Virus record (IMG/VR): IMGVR_UViG_3300047359_001782
Span: 23,402-87,401 of that record
Source: a virus
DNA: 64,000 nt
Direction: 5' to 3' (one strand)
The notes beneath the pieces were generated by a model. The model saw only the letters and a list, made by a program, of their open reading frames with translations. It was not told where the DNA came from and ran no database searches. Position numbers and translations under genes: made by a program. This document shows positions 3,539-63,239 of the stretch, one piece after another; position 1 is the first letter of the stretch; each line of letters starts with the position of its first letter.

Positions 3539-3737
3539 CTCTTAAGTTTATTCCATGGCATTCGCAGTAAGCTACTGAGTATCCTACATTAAAATTAAAT
3601 TTCTCTATAAAACAAATCAAGCCCAAAATGATATAAGGTTCAAACTTTAAATAACCGAAATTATAAAAAAGCAAAAACCCTATGATCAATAATGGACAAA
3701 ACTTGTTAAGAGAATAGTCTACCATTGCCCCTCTCAC
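3531..3737 (-). CDS. small two-helix membrane protein
   Basis: 68 aa from a GTG at 3737 that overlaps the preceding TGA (GTGA); an ATG four codons in (3725) is an alternative start. Two hydrophobic stretches, FCPLLIIGFLLFYNFGYL and YIILGLICFI, suggest two membrane helices, followed by a Cys-rich tail (YCECHG). Function unknown. It lies inside the overlapping operon 2539-3982. Confidence 0.5.
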   Translation of the reverse strand: MRGAMVDYSLNKFCPLLIIGFLLFYNFGYLKFEPYIILGLICFIEKFNFNVGYSVAYCECHGINLRGE

Positions 3738-8451: not shown

Positions 8452-8625
8452 TTAATTTTGTTTATATAAATTTTTAAGTTCTTGTAAAAATAAAGGTTTT
8501 GCTCCTTCACTAAGTTTTGTATATTGTTTTTTTGCACGAGAATATACTCGCTTTTGTGTTGCATCAGAAAGTTTCGGATCATAGTTGATGATTTTTCTTA
8601 TTTCTTTTGCTATTGATTTGTTCAT
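8452..8625 (-). CDS. small basic hypothetical protein
   Basis: 57 aa from the ATG at 8625 (MNKSIAKEIRKIINYD). An in-frame ATG upstream at 8661 would start inside the promoter and is rejected. It is lysine-rich and helical, with no known domain. The start codon is 7 nt from a perfect -10 box, so this is the leaderless first gene of the operon that includes the tmRNA. Confidence 0.6.
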   Translation of the reverse strand: MNKSIAKEIRKIINYDPKLSDATQKRVYSRAKKQYTKLSEGAKPLFLQELKNLYKQN

Positions 8626-8632
8626 GGTACTG

Positions 8633-8661
8633 ATTATATTATAAATAAATGTAAATGTCAA
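8633..8661 (-). promoter_or_regulatory. consensus sigma-70 early promoter
   Basis: Minus-strand -35 TTGACA (8661-8656), 17 bp, -10 TATAAT (8638-8633): both hexamers are perfect consensus. The ATG at 8625 follows 7 nt after the -10. It drives the small basic gene, the DUF736-like and holin-like genes and probably the tmRNA. Confidence 0.9.
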
Positions 8662-8668
8662 GAGTTAT

Positions 8669-9394
8669 TTATTCAAATGTTGATTTTTCCCAATCAAAAA
8701 GTCCAAAATATGTCTTTGATATGATGCTGTTTGAGGTATATCCTTGGGTGATAAAAGAACATTCTTTCGTCTCAAACTCCTCAATAAAATCAGGTAGTTG
8801 TGGGTTGATGATTTTTTTTAATTTATTGCAATAATTTTTTGATTGTTTTAGTGTCATATTGTTGTGATTAAATTTTGGAAAGATAGCGCAGTGAGCTTTT
8901 TTGCCTCTTTTTGAAAATTCGATTCCCTCTTTATGCTTTGGCATATTGAGTTTAAAATAAAAATTAATAAGTTTAATAATTAAAGGGTTGTGAAAATATC
9001 TGTATTTTAATTCTGTACGCGCACCTTTATTGAAAGTTATAACTTTGCTGGAATTTTTGCCATCTGGTAGATATATTGCTTTTTTTGTTTTTAGTGAATT
9101 TAAATTTAGCTTAATTGATAAATTAATTCCTTGTATAGATTGATTGTGAATATCTGTTTTGTTTATAATAAAATCTTGTTCTCCAAAAAAACATTTCAAG
9201 CAATCTTCTTGCGCCGGTAATTTTCTACTGTAAATTTTTGTATAAAGCTTAATTGAGTTAATTCCTTTTTTTGAATAATCAAGGCCAAAACCATCAAGCG
9301 CTTTATACTTTGACTTTAGATCTTTTGAAAAATCGCAGAAAGCTCTTAAATCTTTAGGGAGGCTGTTATTTAATATGAAATCATAAATTTTCAT
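8669..9394 (-). CDS. unknown protein, last gene of the GMP-reductase operon
   Basis: 241 aa, not recognised with confidence. A segment FGLDYSKKGINSIKLYTKIY and a near-terminal SIISKTYFGLF loosely recall repeat strands of ABBA-type aromatic prenyltransferases (xGxxxxKLY ... KxYFG). That resemblance is weak and could be chance. It has six cysteines (QEDCLKCFFG, KEC) and a basic mid-section. The start overlaps the citrate-synthase-like gene by 14 nt. Because all six genes of this operon overlap, it probably acts in the same pathway. Confidence 0.5.
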   Translation of the reverse strand: MKIYDFILNNSLPKDLRAFCDFSKDLKSKYKALDGFGLDYSKKGINSIKLYTKIYSRKLPAQEDCLKCFFGEQDFIINKTDIHNQSIQGINLSIKLNLNSLKTKKAIYLPDGKNSSKVITFNKGARTELKYRYFHNPLIIKLINFYFKLNMPKHKEGIEFSKRGKKAHCAIFPKFNHNNMTLKQSKNYCNKLKKIINPQLPDFIEEFETKECSFITQGYTSNSIISKTYFGLFDWEKSTFE

Positions 9395-9989
9395 TATTAA
9401 TAGACAAGAAGGAGGGTACTACTTTATTGAATTTAACTTTCGTATCATTATATATCTTGAGCCAACCAAACATTCTTCCTAATAGCGGAAGAAAAAGGCA
9501 ATTATATGGAGCTATTCCATTGTCTAGCGATAGGCAAGCTATAATACAACCGATATTCATTGGTACAGGCATAATTTTTTCCAAATTTATACAAAAATTT
9601 GTACTATCACCGAACACTGATTTGTATTTGTTTTTTAGAAAAATAACTCTGTCATCTTCATTTTTTATAGATGGATGACCGAATCCGGGAATTTTTTGAT
9701 TAGAGTGCCTTTCTGCTACTTCTTTGGGATTATATTTATGATTTTTATGTATAAACTCTGCGATTTGTTGTATTGGTAAATGTTGGTCGCTAATACAATT
9801 TAGCCCCGAAGATAAAGCATGAGCTAGAGATGCGCCTGAATTGCAAGCTAGCGCAACAACTGCTGAGCTTGGCGGTTCTATTTTTACAGGAAAATCTATA
9901 AAAATATTAGATAAATCATTAAATAAATCTAATTGAATTTCTGTTAAATTATCTCCTGCAAGATATTTGTATATATCATTTTTAAACAT
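9381..9989 (-). CDS. citrate-synthase/citryl-CoA-lyase-like protein, catalytic Asp missing
   Basis: 202 aa, shorter than citryl-CoA-lyase-type proteins (~260 aa). Fold signatures are SSAVVALACNSGASLAHAL, His70 in CISDQHLP, His105 in the family hallmark IPGFGHPSIKNEDDR, and IACLSLDNGIAPYN...LLGRMFGWL. In the family a conserved N-V-D-G carries the catalytic aspartate; here that stretch reads NIGC (145-148), so the aspartate seems lost. Classical enzymes condense or cleave acyl-CoA and oxaloacetate-type substrates. This copy may use a different substrate or act as a binding protein. It overlaps both neighbours in the six-gene operon. The fold call is fairly secure; the activity is not. Confidence 0.7.
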   Translation of the reverse strand: MFKNDIYKYLAGDNLTEIQLDLFNDLSNIFIDFPVKIEPPSSAVVALACNSGASLAHALSSGLNCISDQHLPIQQIAEFIHKNHKYNPKEVAERHSNQKIPGFGHPSIKNEDDRVIFLKNKYKSVFGDSTNFCINLEKIMPVPMNIGCIIACLSLDNGIAPYNCLFLPLLGRMFGWLKIYNDTKVKFNKVVPSFLSINNENL

Positions 9990-10476
9990 TTAATAAAGCT
10001 TCATGTTTTGTTGATATTAAATTGGTCTGCGCTTTGTATTTTTCTATAATTTTTTCAGAGTTTTTAATAGACGCTTCATTTTCAAAATGGATTTCATAAA
10101 TAAATTTACTAATGCCAATATCTTTTAAATAATTAGCCATAAAAATTCTTAGTTCAGTGCCTACGTTTTGTCTTCTATAATTTTTATCAACAACTGTCAA
10201 TACTCCTAGCGCTATTGATTCTTCAAGATCGTAAATCTCATTTGGTTTTGTTGAAGCGCAAGTTAAGCCTGCTAGTTTTTCTTTAACAGAATAACCAAAA
10301 ATTGGCTGATCTTCAAAAATAATTGGAAAAATTTCTGATTTATATAAACTATATGCGTTTTTTTCTGTAGGTTTTAGCTTGCCTATAAATAATGAATCAT
10401 TATTATCTATGCAAGATTTTAAGAGTTGAATTATATTATCTTCGTGCTGAAAGTCTAAATGATGTATATTGCTCAT
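9982..10476 (-). CDS. GNAT-family N-acyltransferase
   Basis: 164 aa. The acetyl-CoA-binding motif A is visible as GVLTVVDKNYRRQNVGTELRIFM (strand, then R-R-Q-N-V-G-T pyrophosphate loop and helix). NEASIKNSEKIIEKY corresponds to motif B. It transfers an acyl group from acyl-CoA to an amine; the substrate is unknown. The ATG at 10476 is used because it overlaps the GMP-reductase stop as TGATG; a GTG one codon earlier is possible. Being next to a citrate-synthase-like (CoA-type) protein makes acyl-CoA chemistry a common theme of this operon. Confidence 0.8.
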   Translation of the reverse strand: MSNIHHLDFQHEDNIIQLLKSCIDNNDSLFIGKLKPTEKNAYSLYKSEIFPIIFEDQPIFGYSVKEKLAGLTCASTKPNEIYDLEESIALGVLTVVDKNYRRQNVGTELRIFMANYLKDIGISKFIYEIHFENEASIKNSEKIIEKYKAQTNLISTKHEALLNV

Positions 10477-11453
10477 CACACATAATGATACCCTACAGTT
10501 GATAAACTTTCTAGATTTTTACCTCCTGAGTAGCTTATCGCGCTCTGCATGTCTTGTTGAATTTCTTTTAATTTTTGTTTATATGTCATTCCGTTATTCT
10601 TAATTTTATTTAGTTTTCCTTCAATGTGATTGCGGTGTTTTTTGTTTTCATAGCTTGCGGAACCAAAATAAGCTTTATGGAACTCTCCATTAATTTCTAT
10701 AACAGTAGCAGGACTATCTACGCAGCTCGCAAATAAACCTCCCGCCATAACCATGTCTGCACCAGCAACCATAGCTTTTGCAATATCTCCATTGCATTTT
10801 ATTCCTCCGTCTGCGATAATTGGAACTTTATTTAAATTATCTTCATGTTCACCAACATATACTGAACTACAAGATTTTGCGCAACTAAACATAGGTAGTG
10901 TAAATCCAGTTTTATCTTTTGTCGTGCAAGGAGAACCTTGGCCAATTCCAACTTTTACCACATCTGCTCCTGCGTTAGCTAAATCAATCACCGCCTGTCG
11001 AGTTGCTACGTTACCTGCTATAATTTTTGTGTTAGGTAATTCTTTTTTAATAAATTTAATCATGTCAATCATTTTTTTTGAATGACCATGGGCAATATCT
11101 ATTGTGAGGAAATCAATAGAGTTTCCTCGCCTTCGTATTTTATGTATTTTGTCTTGATCTGGATCTTGAACTCCCACGCTAAACGATATTATTTTCCAGT
11201 TTTCGGCGTTTGCGATAGCTACATTGTCTGCAAGATCATTATTAAATCGATGCATGACATAAAAGTATTCATTTTCGCTCATCCATTTTGCTAAGCTCAT
11301 GTTAATGACAGATTGCATATTGGCAGGAATAATTGGAAGTCTAAATTTAAACCCGCAAAATTCAACACTTGTATTGCATTCTGATCTGCTTGAGCATTCA
11401 CTATATTTTGGAACTAAAACAATATCTGAGTAATCTCTGTATTTAGCTGTCAT
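10476..11453 (-). CDS. guaC: GMP reductase
   Basis: 325 aa from the ATG at 11453, close to the 326 aa of the Bacillus-type GMP reductase. Hallmarks are SRSECNTSVEFCG, PIIPANMQSVI, TIDIAHGHS, IIAGNVAT, the catalytic Cys176 in GIGQGSPCTT, PIIADGGIKCNGDIAKAM and YFGSAS...EGK. It reduces GMP to IMP and ammonia with NADPH. An upstream in-frame ATG (11498) is rejected because that region encodes the small membrane protein in another frame and because MTAKYRDYSD aligns with the family start. GMP reductase is an uncommon phage enzyme. Here it is the third gene of a six-gene overlapping operon and would shift the purine pool from G toward IMP or A. Confidence 0.93.
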   Translation of the reverse strand: MTAKYRDYSDIVLVPKYSECSSRSECNTSVEFCGFKFRLPIIPANMQSVINMSLAKWMSENEYFYVMHRFNNDLADNVAIANAENWKIISFSVGVQDPDQDKIHKIRRRGNSIDFLTIDIAHGHSKKMIDMIKFIKKELPNTKIIAGNVATRQAVIDLANAGADVVKVGIGQGSPCTTKDKTGFTLPMFSCAKSCSSVYVGEHEDNLNKVPIIADGGIKCNGDIAKAMVAGADMVMAGGLFASCVDSPATVIEINGEFHKAYFGSASYENKKHRNHIEGKLNKIKNNGMTYKQKLKEIQQDMQSAISYSGGKNLESLSTVGYHYV

Positions 11454-11565
11454 AAAAATCGTCTTCTTTTTTCTTGTTAAAAAGCCAAATAATTCCACCT
11501 ATGATTCCAAAAACTAAGAAATCTCCAGTGAAAAATTCAAAATAAGAAGTTGCTAGTGTGTACAT
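11443..11565 (-). CDS. 40-aa single-pass membrane protein
   Basis: 40 aa, hand-translated: a short start (MYTLATSYFEF), one hydrophobic helix (FLVFGIIGGIIWLF) and a charged tail (NKKKEDDFYDS). The ATG overlaps the stop of the deoxyribosyltransferase-like gene (TAATG) and the stop overlaps the GMP-reductase start by 11 nt. These overlaps argue that it is a real operon member. It might tether or regulate the enzymes; function unknown. Confidence 0.6.
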   Translation of the reverse strand: MYTLATSYFEFFTGDFLVFGIIGGIIWLFNKKKEDDFYDS

Positions 11566-12104
11566 TATCTATATTCCTTTTGAAGTAGTCTCCATCTGTC
11601 TGAGTCAATAGGCTTGTTTCCGCAATCTATAGCGAAGAGCATATCTATAATCTCATCAACTGTATTATAAATATATTTATGCGGGAACATTCCAAGCATC
11701 CATAAAGGAGTCTTTGATTTTCCGCCTTCCATACTAACAAAAACAGGCTTCTTCTCTCTAACTGCAGTGACAATCTCTTCTGCGCTGCCCCAGCTTGCGA
11801 CCTCAGGAACGAGGTGAGCTACTATAAAATCGCTTCGATCAACTAAATTTAAATCATATGCTCGAACCGTTTTCATTCGATCTGTAACTCGATCGTATTG
11901 TTTTGTCTTCATCCAAGTTTCCATTTCTTGGCGAGAAGCTTCATCTTCTTCTACATCTTTAATAAATGGTTTTTTATAGGGGTCAAAGCAAGTTATTCCT
12001 AGTGGTTCAAGTTTTTCTGTTACATGCTCTCTCCAATTCCTGCCACTAACATATTGCATGTGGCCTACTAAATAACATTTAGTTCTGTACAATAGATTAT
12101 TCAT
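11565..12104 (-). CDS. nucleoside 2-deoxyribosyltransferase-like protein
   Basis: 179 aa. The N-terminal strand CYLVGHMQYVSGRNWRE, the mid motif AYDLNLVDRSDFIVAHL and ASWGSAEEIVTAVREKKPVFV match the Rossmann-like fold of nucleoside 2-deoxyribosyltransferases and related N-glycosidases. In these the Glu of the xGSxxEI motif attacks C1' of a deoxynucleoside. It could swap or remove bases from (deoxy)nucleotides. It heads the operon containing GMP reductase and starts 6 nt from a consensus -10 box. A related nucleotide-binding role (SLOG/TIR-like sensing) cannot be excluded. Confidence 0.75.
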   Translation of the reverse strand: MNNLLYRTKCYLVGHMQYVSGRNWREHVTEKLEPLGITCFDPYKKPFIKDVEEDEASRQEMETWMKTKQYDRVTDRMKTVRAYDLNLVDRSDFIVAHLVPEVASWGSAEEIVTAVREKKPVFVSMEGGKSKTPLWMLGMFPHKYIYNTVDEIIDMLFAIDCGNKPIDSDRWRLLQKEYR

Positions 12105-12110
12105 GCCTGA

Positions 12111-12139
12111 ATTATATCAGACAATAACTTTAATGTCAA
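12111..12139 (-). promoter_or_regulatory. consensus sigma-70 early promoter
   Basis: Minus-strand -35 TTGACA (12139-12134), 17 bp, -10 TATAAT (12116-12111), both perfect. The ATG at 12104 is 6 nt from the -10, implying a leaderless message. It drives the six-gene GMP-reductase operon. Confidence 0.92.
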
Positions 12140-23399: not shown

Positions 23400-26300
23400 A
23401 TGGCTATTAATCTTGACGTACACGGTAATACACAACCTCTTGAGGCAGCGGTTCAAGCTGCAGTAAATAGAATTCGCAGAACGCCAATTAAAATAACTGT
23501 TGACGATAAGGGTGCGACGCAGCCCTTAGGCAACATGAAACGGGGCGCTGACGAATTTACAAAGTCAATGGAAGCGGCAAATGCTCGTATTATAGCATTC
23601 GGCGCCTCTATGGCAATTATAAATGGCGTAGCAGATTCTTTTAAGGCCATGGTTAGAAATATGGTTGAGGTTGAAAAATCTCTTGCAGATATTAATGTTG
23701 TTATGGGCTTGAATGCTCAGAGCCTTGAAAAGTTCAGCGATGGATTGTTTAAAGTCGCGAAAGAAACGGGAGCGGCATTTAAAATAGCCGCCGATGCAGC
23801 AACAGAATATGCTCGTCAAGGCCTCAACGTAGAGGAATCTCTTAAAAGAACCAAAGACGCTCTTATTCTTACTCGATTAACAGGAATGGATTCTGCAGAG
23901 GCAGTAAAGTCTTTGACTGCCGCCATGAATACTTACGGGCATCAAATAAAGGATACTACTCAATTGGTGAGTAAGTTTGCTGCGGTAGATGTAAAGTTTG
24001 CTGTTAGTGCAGAAGATTTTGCTGACGCTATTTCCAGAACTGGTGCTGCAGCAAAAGGAGCTGGCGTGGATATTGATGAATTAATAGGCTTGGTTACCGC
24101 TGCTCAACAACAAACTGCTCGAGGCGGAAAGGTTATTGGTAACTCGTTTAAAACAATTTTTACTCGTATCGGAAGGACAGATACATTAAATCAATTGGAA
24201 AATCTTGGAATTGCTGTTAGAGATATTGAAGGAAGAACTCTTGGAGCAAAGCGAATACTTAGTGATTTAGCAAATACATTTGATACATTATCTGAAGCTC
24301 AAAAGGCTCAAATAGCTCAAACTGTTGGTGGAGTTTTCCAAATCAACGTTTTAAAGGCTGTTCTTGGTGACGCCGCAAAACAAAATGGTATTCTTGCAAA
24401 TGCCACGCAAATATCTGCAAACGCAACAGACGAGGCTATAACAAAAAATGAACAATTAAGAAACACAATGGCCGCAATGGCCACAGAAACAGGTCTCGCA
24501 ATAAAACAAGTTAGCGCTCAAGCGGGCGAAATAGCATTAGGTCCTGGAATAGAAAAAGTGCTTAATACAGTTAAGGCTATCGCTGAAAATATAAGTGGTT
24601 CATTGGGTGATGGAGAAGGCGCTGGAAATGAATTCGCTAAAGGTTTATTAAGAGGTATTGGCAATGTTATTACGGGTCCTGGATTAGTAGTTTTAACGAC
24701 GGTATTTATAAAGTTATTTGGTCAAGCATTTAAGTTTACCAAAGACAGCTTAGGATCTCTAATTGGCATAACCAATGAAGCTCAAAAACAAAAAGCCATT
24801 CAAACATCGATTGTTACTTTATTTGGGCAAAACGCCGCGTTAAGTAAGGAAATGTTGCGCACAGATATAAGCAGGACAGAAAAAGAAAAAATAATTTTAA
24901 GTTTACTTAAAGCTCAAGTTGCTGAAGCTAATGTTTTAAATAACGTAAGTAAGCAGGCCGCTGCAACTTTATATACTAAAGGATATGGGGCAAACTTAAC
25001 CCCAAGAAAAGGTCGCGCCTACGGCCATATTCCTAATTTCGCTCATCCAGAGAGAGAGCAAGCTGCCAAAGGTGGATATTCTGCAGGAAATATTCGAGAA
25101 ATGAATATGCCTGGAGAGGGCCCAATTATTTACAATAGCTCTGAGACAGTTAAGAATTTTAAGGGAATGAATCAGCCTGCAATTATGCCTCCTCAATCAA
25201 GCAAAGCTGGAAAAAACTATCAACAAGCATTTGGGGATATACATGGATTTGATCCGTATGCTGCAGGGGGATATATACCGAATTTTGCGAAAAAAACTGC
25301 GGCCGAATATTTAGAGAATGCAAGAAATGCAAAAACAACCGCTAATTTAACAAACATTGTTAAGGGGCGGCAAATAGGAGGGGTGACATTCTCCCCCGAA
25401 CAACAAGCTGCTGCAGCTGCAGCTTTACGAGAAAGATCTGCAGCAATAAAAACCGTATCAACCTCTAGTCAATTAAAAGCAAAAGATAATGATGTTATCA
25501 GTCAGATATATAATAAAAGTGGTAAAATGGTTTTGTTTGCCGCATCCGCCCAAGGGGGAGGTTCTTATGCTGGAGACAGAAAGAAAAACATTATTTATTT
25601 AAATCCCAATCCAACAAAAGGAGGTTCGAAGTTTAGCACAACCAATAAAACGGGTATGGTACCCGTGAATGTTCCATATTTTACTATTGGTAAAAACGAT
25701 GAAGAACGAGCTAAGAACGATCCTAAAATTAAAAATAAGATCGAGGGGGACTTGGTCAATCAGGCGCAAAAAACCACAAATCATTTAGTAAGCACAATAT
25801 TCAAAGAGGAGTCTATACCTAATGTAATAAAACCTGGTGACGTTGCTGTTACAGTTGGTAATGTTTTTGAAAAAATTCTTATGTCTGTGCAAAAGGGGGT
25901 TGCAAAGGAAGCTTATGATGCAGACCCTCCAGGTAATGCTTTATTGGATATTCCTAGAGGCGGTAGAGATGCACTGTGGAATTTGTTTGGCGCGACTCCG
26001 CTTGGAAGTCTTGGCGCGGAAGCTAAAATAGCCCTAGGAAGTGACGGCGACGCTGCGCACCTTAAATCTGCTGCAGAAAAATTTTACAAGATCGATAGTT
26101 ATAAGGGCCCAGGAGGCAAAAAAGCCAAAGCATTTGCTCCAGCAGGACAAGCCCAAGTAAAAAGAGGTGGAACTAAAGCTTCAGGCCACATCCCTAATTT
26201 CGCAAAAGTAAAATGGTCCATTGATAAAAAGAAAGGTCAATATGGATTGACCGGGTCTCATATGGAATTAATGCAATTCGTGGATTACCTTGAAAGAGCT

Positions 26301-59771: not shown

Positions 59772-62360
59772 ATGGCCACAAAAAATTTAGTCCCAAGAAA
59801 CAGCGGAGAAGGTAGCGTAGGTAAAATATCTAAACCCTGGGAATCCGGAGTTTTCGACAACCTGTATATCAAAGGCGTAGAATTTACTGCAGATCAATCG
59901 CTCGAAACTGGAGATAATGTTGAATTTAATAGCGGTAATTTCATAAATGGGCTAACAGTGGGCGGAATTGATGTGGCAACATCTGTTGATTCAATACAGC
60001 AAACATTAGAAGAAAGTTCTCCATTTATATTCTTCTCAGACGTATTAGATAATATAGGAGTTACTGATAAAACTTTTTACGAAAATACTCCTAATTCCGA
60101 AACTCATTTATCAGGAGTTGTAGTTGCAAAAGCGGAAGATATAAAAGCATATATTCAATGGGACGGACCTAATGATGAATACATTGGTCAAGCCTCAATT
60201 AACGGACAACAAATTCCTTTAAGCAATATATCTCAATTAGGTACAGACACAAGAAGATTTGAAGGTTATTTAGATAATTTAAATTTGATAGGAGAAACAG
60301 GTATAACTGGAGAGGCTAATGGTAGATCAGTAGTTTTACCCATATCAGAGCTAGGAGGAGGTCCGACACCAAATAATATACTCATTGATTCAATATCTAA
60401 TTCCACAGCTAAACCAGGAGAAGAGAAAGGATTAAGTCATTTAAAAGAAGGGGATTCGATCAACATATATATAGATTTTCCAACCAATGATGTAGATCTT
60501 ATAAAAATTCATGATTACGGAATAGCTAAAGAAATAGATTTCACCAATTACTCCCTTCAAAATGTGAATGGTTTTTATAGAGCTACTATCCCTATAGAGG
60601 TCTCAAGTCGAGAGGGGTCTCTTTCTGTAGCCGTACAAGCAATAAATTCTTTTGGGACTACAGGAGAATTAAAAGAGTCCTCAGACTTTGATCATGCTAG
60701 TGGAACAAGAGATGTAGATCAAACTTATCCTACAATCAACGCATCAAATCCCACATCATATAATGGAAGATCTGATGGCTTAAGAGAAGGAGAATCAACG
60801 TCATTTTCGAATACAATTTCAAATTGGATAAATAATACAGATACAGTCTCATACACACCGTTATCAAATGATATCTCAATAAACAATCAAAACACCTATT
60901 CTTCACTTAAAACAGTTAATTATCAAGGAGGGATATATAATAATTCAGACAATCTAGAAATATATGCGGTTCGAGTAGGTAATGGAGCTACAGACCGAAA
61001 AAGAGTTAATGTCAAAATAGCAAATGGACCAGTTATAGTTTCGACTCAAATGGATTCTCTAGCATCTTCAGCATCCAGCCCTCACATAGTAGGCACTACT
61101 GAAGTTAAAGCTGGAGACGTATTAAATGCAAAAATAGAAGTAGACGGAAAAGGTGTTTCTATAAATGATATATCTATATCTTTATCGAACTCAGGAATAA
61201 GCGATGGCTCGCAGATCTCCTACTCTTCAAGTTATTCAAAAACAACTTTATTAAACGGAAACTTTGAATTCTCTATTCCAATAAATGTATACGGAACATT
61301 AGGATATTCAACAAGAGACGGAGATCAACCCGCAACTTTTACCGCTAGAAATAATTTCGGAACATTAAGCGATCCAGTAACTACTACAGATACCGCAAGA
61401 ATATTAAATGGCATAATTCCCACAATAAACATATCAAACATTAATTATCCAATATATCAAGAAGCATTAAAACAACAAGAGTCTGCATCAATTGACATAG
61501 AAATATTAAACAAGGATTCAGTAGAATACTCTTCCCCTAACTCCCAGCTTTTAATATCTAATCCAAATACATATACTTTCACAAAATATTGCGCACGCAT
61601 TTCTGGATCATATAACATTGATGGAGATAATGGTGAAAATAATTTAAAAATATCTGCAATAAAAACCTCAAATGGTGTCTATGTGCAAGATTATGCAATA
61701 ATTAATATAGCAAACTCTCCACTAGATCTAACAATACTAAACTTAAACTCTTTATTAAACAGTTCGCCTGAAGGAGAAGATTACTCTTTTAACCTGCAAT
61801 CCAATCAATTAATGATCTCTTCTCCTACATTAAGCATTGATTCCTCGCAAGCATCCCCTTCAATTTTATCAATAAATTCTTCAGGTACAGGCAAAATAAG
61901 CAATTCCTTCATCTTAACAGTGTCGGATACAGACACTAAGGGTACGTTTAATTGGGTGGTTTCCGCAACAAATTTAGCGGGAATTACAACTACCACAATA
62001 GCAACAAATCCGACTTATACACTACAAGGATTTAATTCAAGAACAATTATAGCTTCACCGAATAACTTAGGCGCAGGTCTTGCGCCAGTAGGCACTTCAG
62101 TGACAAACCCCAATAATTTATCTTTCGAAAATGTATCCGAAGGTGGTACAGCTCCAAATGGAGGAACGATTTATACATACGAAAGCTATTCAGATGGAAT
62201 CCAACTAGATAATTCTTATGATTTAAATAATAAATTTACTGTATGTGATTCAAACGGAATCACAGATAGTAATGGAGACCATGTTTTTAATTTAGATAAG
62301 TTAAACAGGTCAGCAAATAGTTCTACGGCAAACCCAGCAACTTTTATTGTTTCAGAATAA
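59772..62360 (+). CDS. long tail fibre/adhesin with Ig-like repeats
   Basis: 862 aa. The N-terminus MATKNLVPRNSGEGSVGKIS, then WESGVFDNLYIKGVEF, is a fibre start seen in marine phages, where such a segment anchors the fibre. From about 200 there are repeating beta-sandwich units of ~110 residues, for example LREGESTSFSNTISNWINN, TEVKAGDVLNAKIEVDG and YQEALKQQESASIDIEIL, each followed by an 'FxxxNNFGTxSxP'-like turn. Ser/Asn/Thr content is high and cysteine nearly absent, as expected for a secreted-type adhesin. Its stop directly abuts the convergent gene. Probably binds host surface. Confidence 0.7.
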   Translation: MATKNLVPRNSGEGSVGKISKPWESGVFDNLYIKGVEFTADQSLETGDNVEFNSGNFINGLTVGGIDVATSVDSIQQTLEESSPFIFFSDVLDNIGVTDKTFYENTPNSETHLSGVVVAKAEDIKAYIQWDGPNDEYIGQASINGQQIPLSNISQLGTDTRRFEGYLDNLNLIGETGITGEANGRSVVLPISELGGGPTPNNILIDSISNSTAKPGEEKGLSHLKEGDSINIYIDFPTNDVDLIKIHDYGIAKEIDFTNYSLQNVNGFYRATIPIEVSSREGSLSVAVQAINSFGTTGELKESSDFDHASGTRDVDQTYPTINASNPTSYNGRSDGLREGESTSFSNTISNWINNTDTVSYTPLSNDISINNQNTYSSLKTVNYQGGIYNNSDNLEIYAVRVGNGATDRKRVNVKIANGPVIVSTQMDSLASSASSPHIVGTTEVKAGDVLNAKIEVDGKGVSINDISISLSNSGISDGSQISYSSSYSKTTLLNGNFEFSIPINVYGTLGYSTRDGDQPATFTARNNFGTLSDPVTTTDTARILNGIIPTINISNINYPIYQEALKQQESASIDIEILNKDSVEYSSPNSQLLISNPNTYTFTKYCARISGSYNIDGDNGENNLKISAIKTSNGVYVQDYAIINIANSPLDLTILNLNSLLNSSPEGEDYSFNLQSNQLMISSPTLSIDSSQASPSILSINSSGTGKISNSFILTVSDTDTKGTFNWVVSATNLAGITTTTIATNPTYTLQGFNSRTIIASPNNLGAGLAPVGTSVTNPNNLSFENVSEGGTAPNGGTIYTYESYSDGIQLDNSYDLNNKFTVCDSNGITDSNGDHVFNLDKLNRSANSSTANPATFIVSE

Positions 62361-62549
62361 TTAAACTGAATCAAAATCAGCTTTAGTACAAAATTTTGTT
62401 AATTTAGTTCCATCCTCATCTACAGCTTTTAAAGAATATCTTATAGATAATTTTCCTGCCTTAGTAGTCTTTTCATATGTTTTTTTAGAAACTTTTTCTT
62501 CAGGTATTAATACCTTTTGTTTTTTCTTTACATTATAAAACTCTATCAT
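62361..62549 (-). CDS. small conserved basic protein
   Basis: 62 aa. MIEFYNVKKKQKVLIPEEKV, then YEKTTKAGKLSIRYSLKAVD and DGTKLTKFCTKADFD. This resembles short proteins of the DUF5679-like type (FYNVKxRxKVxxPxxKV ... DGTKLxxFVxK), but without their paired zinc cysteines. Function unknown. It shares an operon with the J-domain gene upstream (9-nt gap). Its stop abuts the fibre-gene stop on the other strand. Confidence 0.55.
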   Translation of the reverse strand: MIEFYNVKKKQKVLIPEEKVSKKTYEKTTKAGKLSIRYSLKAVDEDGTKLTKFCTKADFDSV

Positions 62550-62558
62550 AGTTTATGA

Positions 62559-63239
62559 TTATAAAGGCTTTTGATTTTTTGTCAATAATTCAAATATAGA
62601 TTTCTTAATATCAGGATTTCCCTTGTGCCACTTATACATTATATCATTCCTAATATGATGTATCTGTTTTTGCATTTTTTGTATCTCTTTCTTTAATTGG
62701 CTTATAAATTCTGGAGATATATTTTTAATACCTATATTTAGCTCTAAGGCTACCTTTAGTATTTTGCGAAAATCTCCGTTTTGTTTTCCCTCTATAACCT
62801 CATTATACATATCTAGTCTTTCATTCAATTCGTCTTTTGGTAAGTTTTTATTTAAATCTGGATGAGTTTTTTTAACAACTTCTCGAAATAAATCATTCAT
62901 CTCATCGTTAGATAACTCAGTAGATCCATCTCTTTCATCAGGAACGGACTGAAATGGGTCTTGTATTTTTTTATTATTACAGTAATCAAGCATTTTACCT
63001 ATAAAATCTCTTCTAATTTCATCAAATTCTTCAACTAAGTCTTCATATTCCATATTCAAATATATAGCTTTATGCCTTAATTTATTAAATATTTTCTTTA
63101 ACTTTTTTTGAGCTTGAGGTTCAGAATATCTTGTTGGTAAATTTTCTTTAATAAACTTTTTATTGCCAGGCTCATATTTGCCCAGAGGATGCTTCTCTCT
63201 CTCCGAAAATAAATCATTAAACAAATCTTTTTCATTCAT
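62559..63239 (-). CDS. J-domain (DnaJ-like) protein
   Basis: 226 aa. A divergent J domain lies at about 110-165: DEMNDLFREVVKKTHPDLNK with the essential His-Pro-Asp (126-128), then ELNERLDMYNEVIEGKQNGD and FRKILKVALEL. J domains stimulate the ATPase of host Hsp70 (DnaK). The N-terminal 100 residues are charged helix (YSEPQAQKKLKKIFNKLRHK) and the C-terminus has another helical pair; either may bind a virion client. Flanked by fibre genes and led by a late promoter element, it probably helps fold large fibre proteins. Confidence 0.75.
   Translation of the reverse strand: MNEKDLFNDLFSEREKHPLGKYEPGNKKFIKENLPTRYSEPQAQKKLKKIFNKLRHKAIYLNMEYEDLVEEFDEIRRDFIGKMLDYCNNKKIQDPFQSVPDERDGSTELSNDEMNDLFREVVKKTHPDLNKNLPKDELNERLDMYNEVIEGKQNGDFRKILKVALELNIGIKNISPEFISQLKKEIQKMQKQIHHIRNDIMYKWHKGNPDIKKSIFELLTKNQKPL

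Follow-up and report, generated by a model that had tools for sequence, protein, structure and literature searches.

What does a marine tailed phage gain from an operon that joins a GMP reductase (GuaC) and a nucleoside 2-deoxyribosyltransferase (NDT)-like protein to a GNAT acetyltransferase and a citrate-synthase (CS)-like protein? The question is raised by six overlapping genes in a stretch of 64,000 nucleotides (the window; positions 23,402 to 87,401 of the 87.4-kb IMG/VR virus record IMGVR_UViG_3300047359_001782), which a sequence-only reading had tentatively interpreted as a purine- or base-modification pathway or as a device acting on nucleotide signalling. We find that the last three genes, encoding the GNAT protein, the CS-like protein and a 241-amino-acid (aa) protein with a predicted ABBA-type prenyltransferase fold (PT), are inherited together, while the nucleotide genes are separable from them. 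We suggest that the operon is a cargo slot under one strong promoter and that its module acylates and prenylates some acceptor, a reading to which we assign a probability of about 0.5.

Relatives were collected by scanning IMG/VR with the CS-like, GuaC, NDT-like and 241-aa proteins. These four scans returned many loci (referred to below by L numbers) with surroundings like those of the window. The window's genes were mapped on all loci, and whatever separates the NDT-like gene from the next conserved block was catalogued; 58 loci remained after counting once those with identical cargo and NDT-like genes at least 95% identical; as these loci were found via the NDT search, all contain the NDT-like gene by construction. 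This interval is a cargo slot, which may be empty or may hold GuaC alone, another acetyltransferase-like protein, GNAT-CS-PT or GuaC-GNAT-CS-PT; in large phages it holds Cupin_8-GuaC-GNAT-CS-158aa-218aa-PT. The other acetyltransferase-like cargo (174-177 aa, assigned by eye) occupies this position both alone and together with GuaC.

The CS-like and PT genes occur together in 12 loci, are both missing from 46 and are never found singly (Fisher p 1e-12), and GNAT is present in 12/12 of the CS-PT loci plus three others. GuaC, by contrast, occurs without the CS-like gene in 15 loci and is missing from three loci that have it, although it is mildly enriched with the module (9/12 module loci, Fisher p 0.018); because the loci share ancestry, these p-values overstate independence, although the CS-like proteins involved diverge to identities as low as 33-38%. 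The counts therefore delimit a well-supported co-inherited module of the GNAT, CS-like and 241-aa genes, with GuaC and the NDT-like gene outside it. GuaC is an independent, separable cargo gene, and the NDT-like gene, usually accompanied by the adjacent 40-aa membrane gene, forms the constant left edge of the slot. Thus, the gene set does recur in conserved order, but in parts that come and go separately, and the single six-gene pathway has to be given up: the cargo survey did not show joint inheritance of nucleotide and modifying genes, the hallmark of a phage base-hypermodification operon. Purifying selection acts on each of the three module genes, with ratios of nonsynonymous to synonymous substitution rates of 0.12-0.21 (CS-like 0.12, GNAT 0.21).

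The 241-aa protein has no convincing family match in Pfam, PHROG or NCBIfam, and structure prediction had been proposed as a check. An AlphaFold2 model of the window member was built from five family sequences (mean predicted local distance difference test score [pLDDT] 78, predicted template-modelling score [pTM] 0.80), and a model of the L084 member, 26% identical to it, from 12 sequences (pLDDT 90, pTM 0.89); the underlying alignments share members, so that the two models are not fully independent. Both are predicted to contain ten strands with intervening helices, as the ten-stranded antiparallel barrel of ABBA enzymes requires. In Foldseek searches of the PDB, the geranyltransferase PirF came top for both models (E 1.5e-4 for the window, 5.6e-5 for L084; probability 1.00). 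Further high-probability matches of the window model were mostly ABBA enzymes (DciF, PagF, IptA, LimF, AmbP1), as were further matches of the L084 model (TleC, CdpNPT, NotF, CloQ, FgaPT2), with other barrels scoring lower and a few unrelated folds interspersed at lower probability. We consider an ABBA-type fold of the 241-aa protein well supported as a prediction.

Residues on the predicted strands are in keeping with this assignment. K49, Y51, K53, Y131, Y133 and K227 are invariant over 14 sequences and Y229 is conserved at 93%; K49/Y51/K53, Y131/Y133 and K227 share parity within their strands (overall alternation p 0.04). Lys-x-Tyr pairs are a feature of ABBA enzymes, and the barrel-strand Lys/Tyr pairs of the phage protein would, as expected, fit a putative diphosphate-binding site, a resemblance that serves as a lead rather than a test. 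The phage protein thus resembles the cyanobactin (F-family) prenyltransferases PirF, PagF, DciF and LimF in its predicted barrel of alternating helix and strand pairs and possibly in its strand Lys/Tyr pairs, but differs from them in lacking detectable sequence similarity, in being shorter (241 versus about 290 aa) and in being phage-encoded, with neither a cyanobactin protease nor a recognized precursor gene. A BFVD fold search with PT gave weak matches only, the best being a cyanophage protein with a low TM-score, and 50,697 annotated phage records contained no PT relatives. A PT profile found none in 399 genomes of one phylum either, a search that had no positive control and is uninformative; these genomes likewise yielded no TIGR04445 sequence for comparison. 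No paper describing a phage prenyltransferase of ABBA fold was found in the literature searched.

Of the two partners, the GNAT protein passes its Pfam cutoff. Most of the CS-like protein aligns with citryl-CoA lyases (E about 3e-7), and it shares with citryl-CoA lyase and the C-terminal module of ATP-citrate lyase (6hxp, 6qcl) the His of the GFGH motif (H105). Of the catalytic His and Asp pair of citrate synthase and citryl-CoA lyase it has thus kept the His and lost the Asp. It further differs from these enzymes in lacking the first part of the domain and in occurring, in the collections searched, only in viruses: a pattern scan of 84,980 GTDB species genomes found no homologues, and the annotated phage records held no relatives. 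The earlier suggestion that acyl-CoA-type enzymes act in one unknown modification pathway can be kept, with its centre shifted to the PT.

The PT gene is also exchanged between operons. L021 and L023 are 90% identical in both GNAT and the CS-like protein and 21% in PT, and L018 and L021 are 91% identical in the CS-like protein and 24% in PT; L020 and L021 show the reverse (PT 86%, CS-like 69%, GNAT 35%). GNAT alleles are exchanged as well (L018 versus L023: CS-like 95%, GNAT 49%). The DNA of L021 and L018 is collinear to position 2747, the end of the CS-like gene, and resumes at 3542, right at the end of the PT gene; the PT gene alone differs in between. The same pattern, with the PT gene alone differing in collinear DNA, was seen between the window and L003. 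When L021 was compared with L018, no neighbouring gene was seen to vary with PT type over about 6 kb of downstream sequence. Such clean exchange inside a conserved operon suggests selection on specificity.

In the favoured reading, one strong promoter would drive the cargo slot, in which the NDT-like and 40-aa membrane genes are fixed and GuaC, as separate cargo, would convert GMP to inosine monophosphate (IMP). PT would transfer a short prenyl group, from host dimethylallyl diphosphate (DMAPP) or geranyl diphosphate (GPP), to a side chain in the peptide or protein that serves as acceptor, and GNAT would acylate this same acceptor from acyl-CoA; the citryl-CoA-lyase-like protein may bind or process acyl-CoA or serve as an obligate partner, and exchange of PT alleles would alter the prenylation target or the prenyl donor used. 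Catalysis is likely, and a peptide or protein is a more likely acceptor than a nucleobase. More tentatively, the system may represent virus-specific prenylation of peptides or proteins, in which an ABBA PT works with an obligate citryl-CoA-lyase-like partner and GNAT and its specificity is diversified by PT-only exchange.

Larger phages keep the GuaC-GNAT-CS-PT order and add Cupin_8/JmjC-like and arginase-like proteins. The 218-aa arginase-like protein, which belongs to these relatives, is absent from the window and has no Pfam match, carries six ureohydrolase-type metal ligands in three motifs, like the peptide arginase OspR, whose motifs have been published (PMC10028609), but in permuted order (IDID first). 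Chemistry of this kind is also seen on peptides, and peptide chemistry appears to be a consistent theme.

Several observations weigh against the proposed modifying role. PT superposition is moderate only (TM 0.60 and 0.41), a TIGR04445 profile matched none of 12 PT members at E 10, and PDB profile searches with five and 12 PT sequences matched no solved prenyltransferase; as sequence profiles reach no known prenyltransferase, PT would be either a highly diverged branch or a fold put to a new use. The position of the catalytic Asp is Gly147 in 12/12 CS-like sequences. A search of small open reading frames within about 8 kb (tblastn, E 0.01), which very short peptides may escape, detected no precursor peptide gene confined to module carriers. 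Cyanophages, too, encode relatives of the arginase-like protein, outside the context of any such module, and the peptide-chemistry context therefore lends weak support.

These points bear on the alternatives to different degrees. If the missing precursor peptide is taken at face value, the product, instead of a modified peptide, might be a small metabolite that bears prenyl and acyl groups, such as an aromatic or amino-acid derivative. ABBA enzymes outside the cyanobactins act on small aromatics, and TleC, CdpNPT, CloQ and FgaPT2 among the Foldseek matches are small-molecule prenyltransferases; however, the top match in both searches, PirF, is a peptide prenyltransferase, DciF and PagF come next in the first, and the operon has no small-molecule scaffold enzyme, leaving a small metabolite unlikely but worth bearing in mind. 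Loss of the Asp in all 12 CS-like sequences, together with rapid allele exchange of the kind typical of arms-race genes, would also suit ABBA-fold and CS-like proteins repurposed as binders that, for example, soak up or inhibit a host defence signal. Yet the invariant strand Lys/Tyr pairs resemble a retained diphosphate site and GNAT co-occurs in every case, and we consider non-enzymatic binders improbable.

A pathway using all six genes, in which GuaC and the NDT-like protein would reshape or detach a base that GNAT, the CS-like protein and the last enzyme would then acylate or prenylate, with modified DNA or a modified nucleotide as the product, would explain why a single operon holds them and the mild enrichment of GuaC with the module, and restriction evasion would also fit allele swapping. 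Set against this are the three of 12 module loci without GuaC and the 15 GuaC loci without the module, the 80-100% conservation of the NDT-like protein in phages with neither, and the lack of any known activity on polymer DNA among the operon's proteins. Because GuaC and the NDT-like gene are separable, base modification is disfavoured; nothing points to a modified base, and we regard this pathway as quite improbable.

The layout of the operon is largely as the sequence-only reading had described it. Six overlapping open reading frames lie on the minus strand (Table 1), with successive overlaps of 1, 11, 4, 8 and 14 nt; the sole adjustment is the GuaC start at ATG 11453, preferred over GTG 11498, which would give a 56-nt overlap with the preceding gene, because relatives suggest the ATG. 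Pfam supports the identities of the genes (IMPDH/GMPR 3e-61, Nuc_deoxyri_tr2 6.5e-8, Citrate_synt 1.7e-7, Acetyltransf_1 1.5e-4), and the consensus promoter ahead of the operon was confirmed. Its -10 box ends 6 nt upstream of the NDT-like start codon (ATG), and the mRNA is therefore probably leaderless; a spacing of 6-8 nt is kept in 36/40 relatives whose NDT start aligns to an ATG. A second perfect promoter starts the next gene and thereby defines the operon end. Perfect promoters with an ATG 6-8 nt past the -10 box were seen at 12102-12139, 8623-8661 and 62547-62585, all on the minus strand (three in the window versus 0.04 expected from shuffles), implying, as far as sequence can tell, leaderless mRNAs.

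GuaC aligns over its full length with the Bacillus anthracis GMP reductase (1ypf; E 9.8e-98), contains the catalytic Cys loop (GSPCTTK) and scores above the curated equivalog cutoff, but differs from that enzyme in being phage-encoded and in sitting in a cargo slot. GuaC is also known from other phages and from pelagimyophages (PMC7029224).

The NDT-like protein scores above the Pfam cutoff of the nucleoside 2-deoxyribosyltransferase superfamily, and a conserved Glu (SWGSAEE), judged by eye, lies at the expected place in the predicted protein. The NDT scan of IMG/VR gave 154 relatives; in the best 80 of these, on contigs up to 211 kb, the protein is 80-100% identical while adjoining genes drop to 25-60%. 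The annotated phage records contain a single, distant match (31% identity). The only match in a GTDB genome, L107, comes from a Proteobacteria metagenome-assembled genome, on a contig of 49 kb; this contig bears the same kind of cargo locus (NDT, GuaC) and is thus probably a phage binned with a bacterium. The 40-aa membrane protein was rejected as a prenylation substrate because its gene persists where the module is absent.

A tail-sheath protein in the window (Table 1) and, by eye, an rIIA-like protein outside the window mark the phage as a myovirus. UvdE-like ultraviolet endonuclease genes, also recognized by eye, lie on the window's own record (L156), outside the window, and in L102, where the gene adjoins that of the arginase-like protein. 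One cyanophage relative of the arginase-like protein is annotated as arginase-like. L102 additionally encodes a large protein that by eye resembles the DUF1549/DUF1553 proteins often found in Planctomycetes and Verrucomicrobia, which may hint at the host of that phage.

Table 1. Features of the operon, its surroundings and related loci (window coordinates unless a locus is given)
Feature	Coordinates	Strand	Basis or remark
Sigma-70-type promoter TTGACA-N17-TATAAT	12111..12139	-	12/12 consensus positions, extended -10
NDT-like protein, 179 aa	11565..12104	-	PF15891, 33.3 bits vs cutoff 30
40-aa single-span membrane protein	11443..11565	-	remains beside NDT where module absent
GMP reductase, GuaC2 type	10476..11453	-	NCBIfam NF003966, 344.6 bits vs cutoff 344
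GNAT acetyltransferase, first module gene	9982..10479	-	PF00583, 22.5 bits vs cutoff 20.7
Citryl-CoA-lyase/citrate-synthase C-terminal-domain-like protein, second module gene	9381..9989	-	catalytic Asp absent
Predicted ABBA-type prenyltransferase-fold protein, 241 aa, third module gene	8669..9394	-	AlphaFold2 and Foldseek
Second perfect promoter	8633..8661	-	12/12 consensus; drives gene at 8452-8625
Tail-sheath protein	59772-62360
Other acetyltransferase-like cargo	L034 8669-9193; L036 8663-9187; L042 9623-10156
Cupin_8/JmjC-like protein	L063 8655-9626; L084 8598-9632		between NDT and GuaC
Arginase-like protein, 212-224 aa	L063 12128-12784; L070; L084; L102 12027-12665		ureohydrolase-type metal-ligand motifs, permuted order
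UvdE-like endonuclease	L156 1350-2372; L102 10994-12037		by eye
DUF1549/DUF1553-type protein	L102 13936-15978		by eye

A compact, sequence-divergent prenyltransferase branch with natural allele swaps would broaden the known range of peptide prenylation. It would provide small enzymes with natural alleles that lend themselves to a comparison of specificity, and would allow a direct test of what a phage gains from prenylating something in its host.
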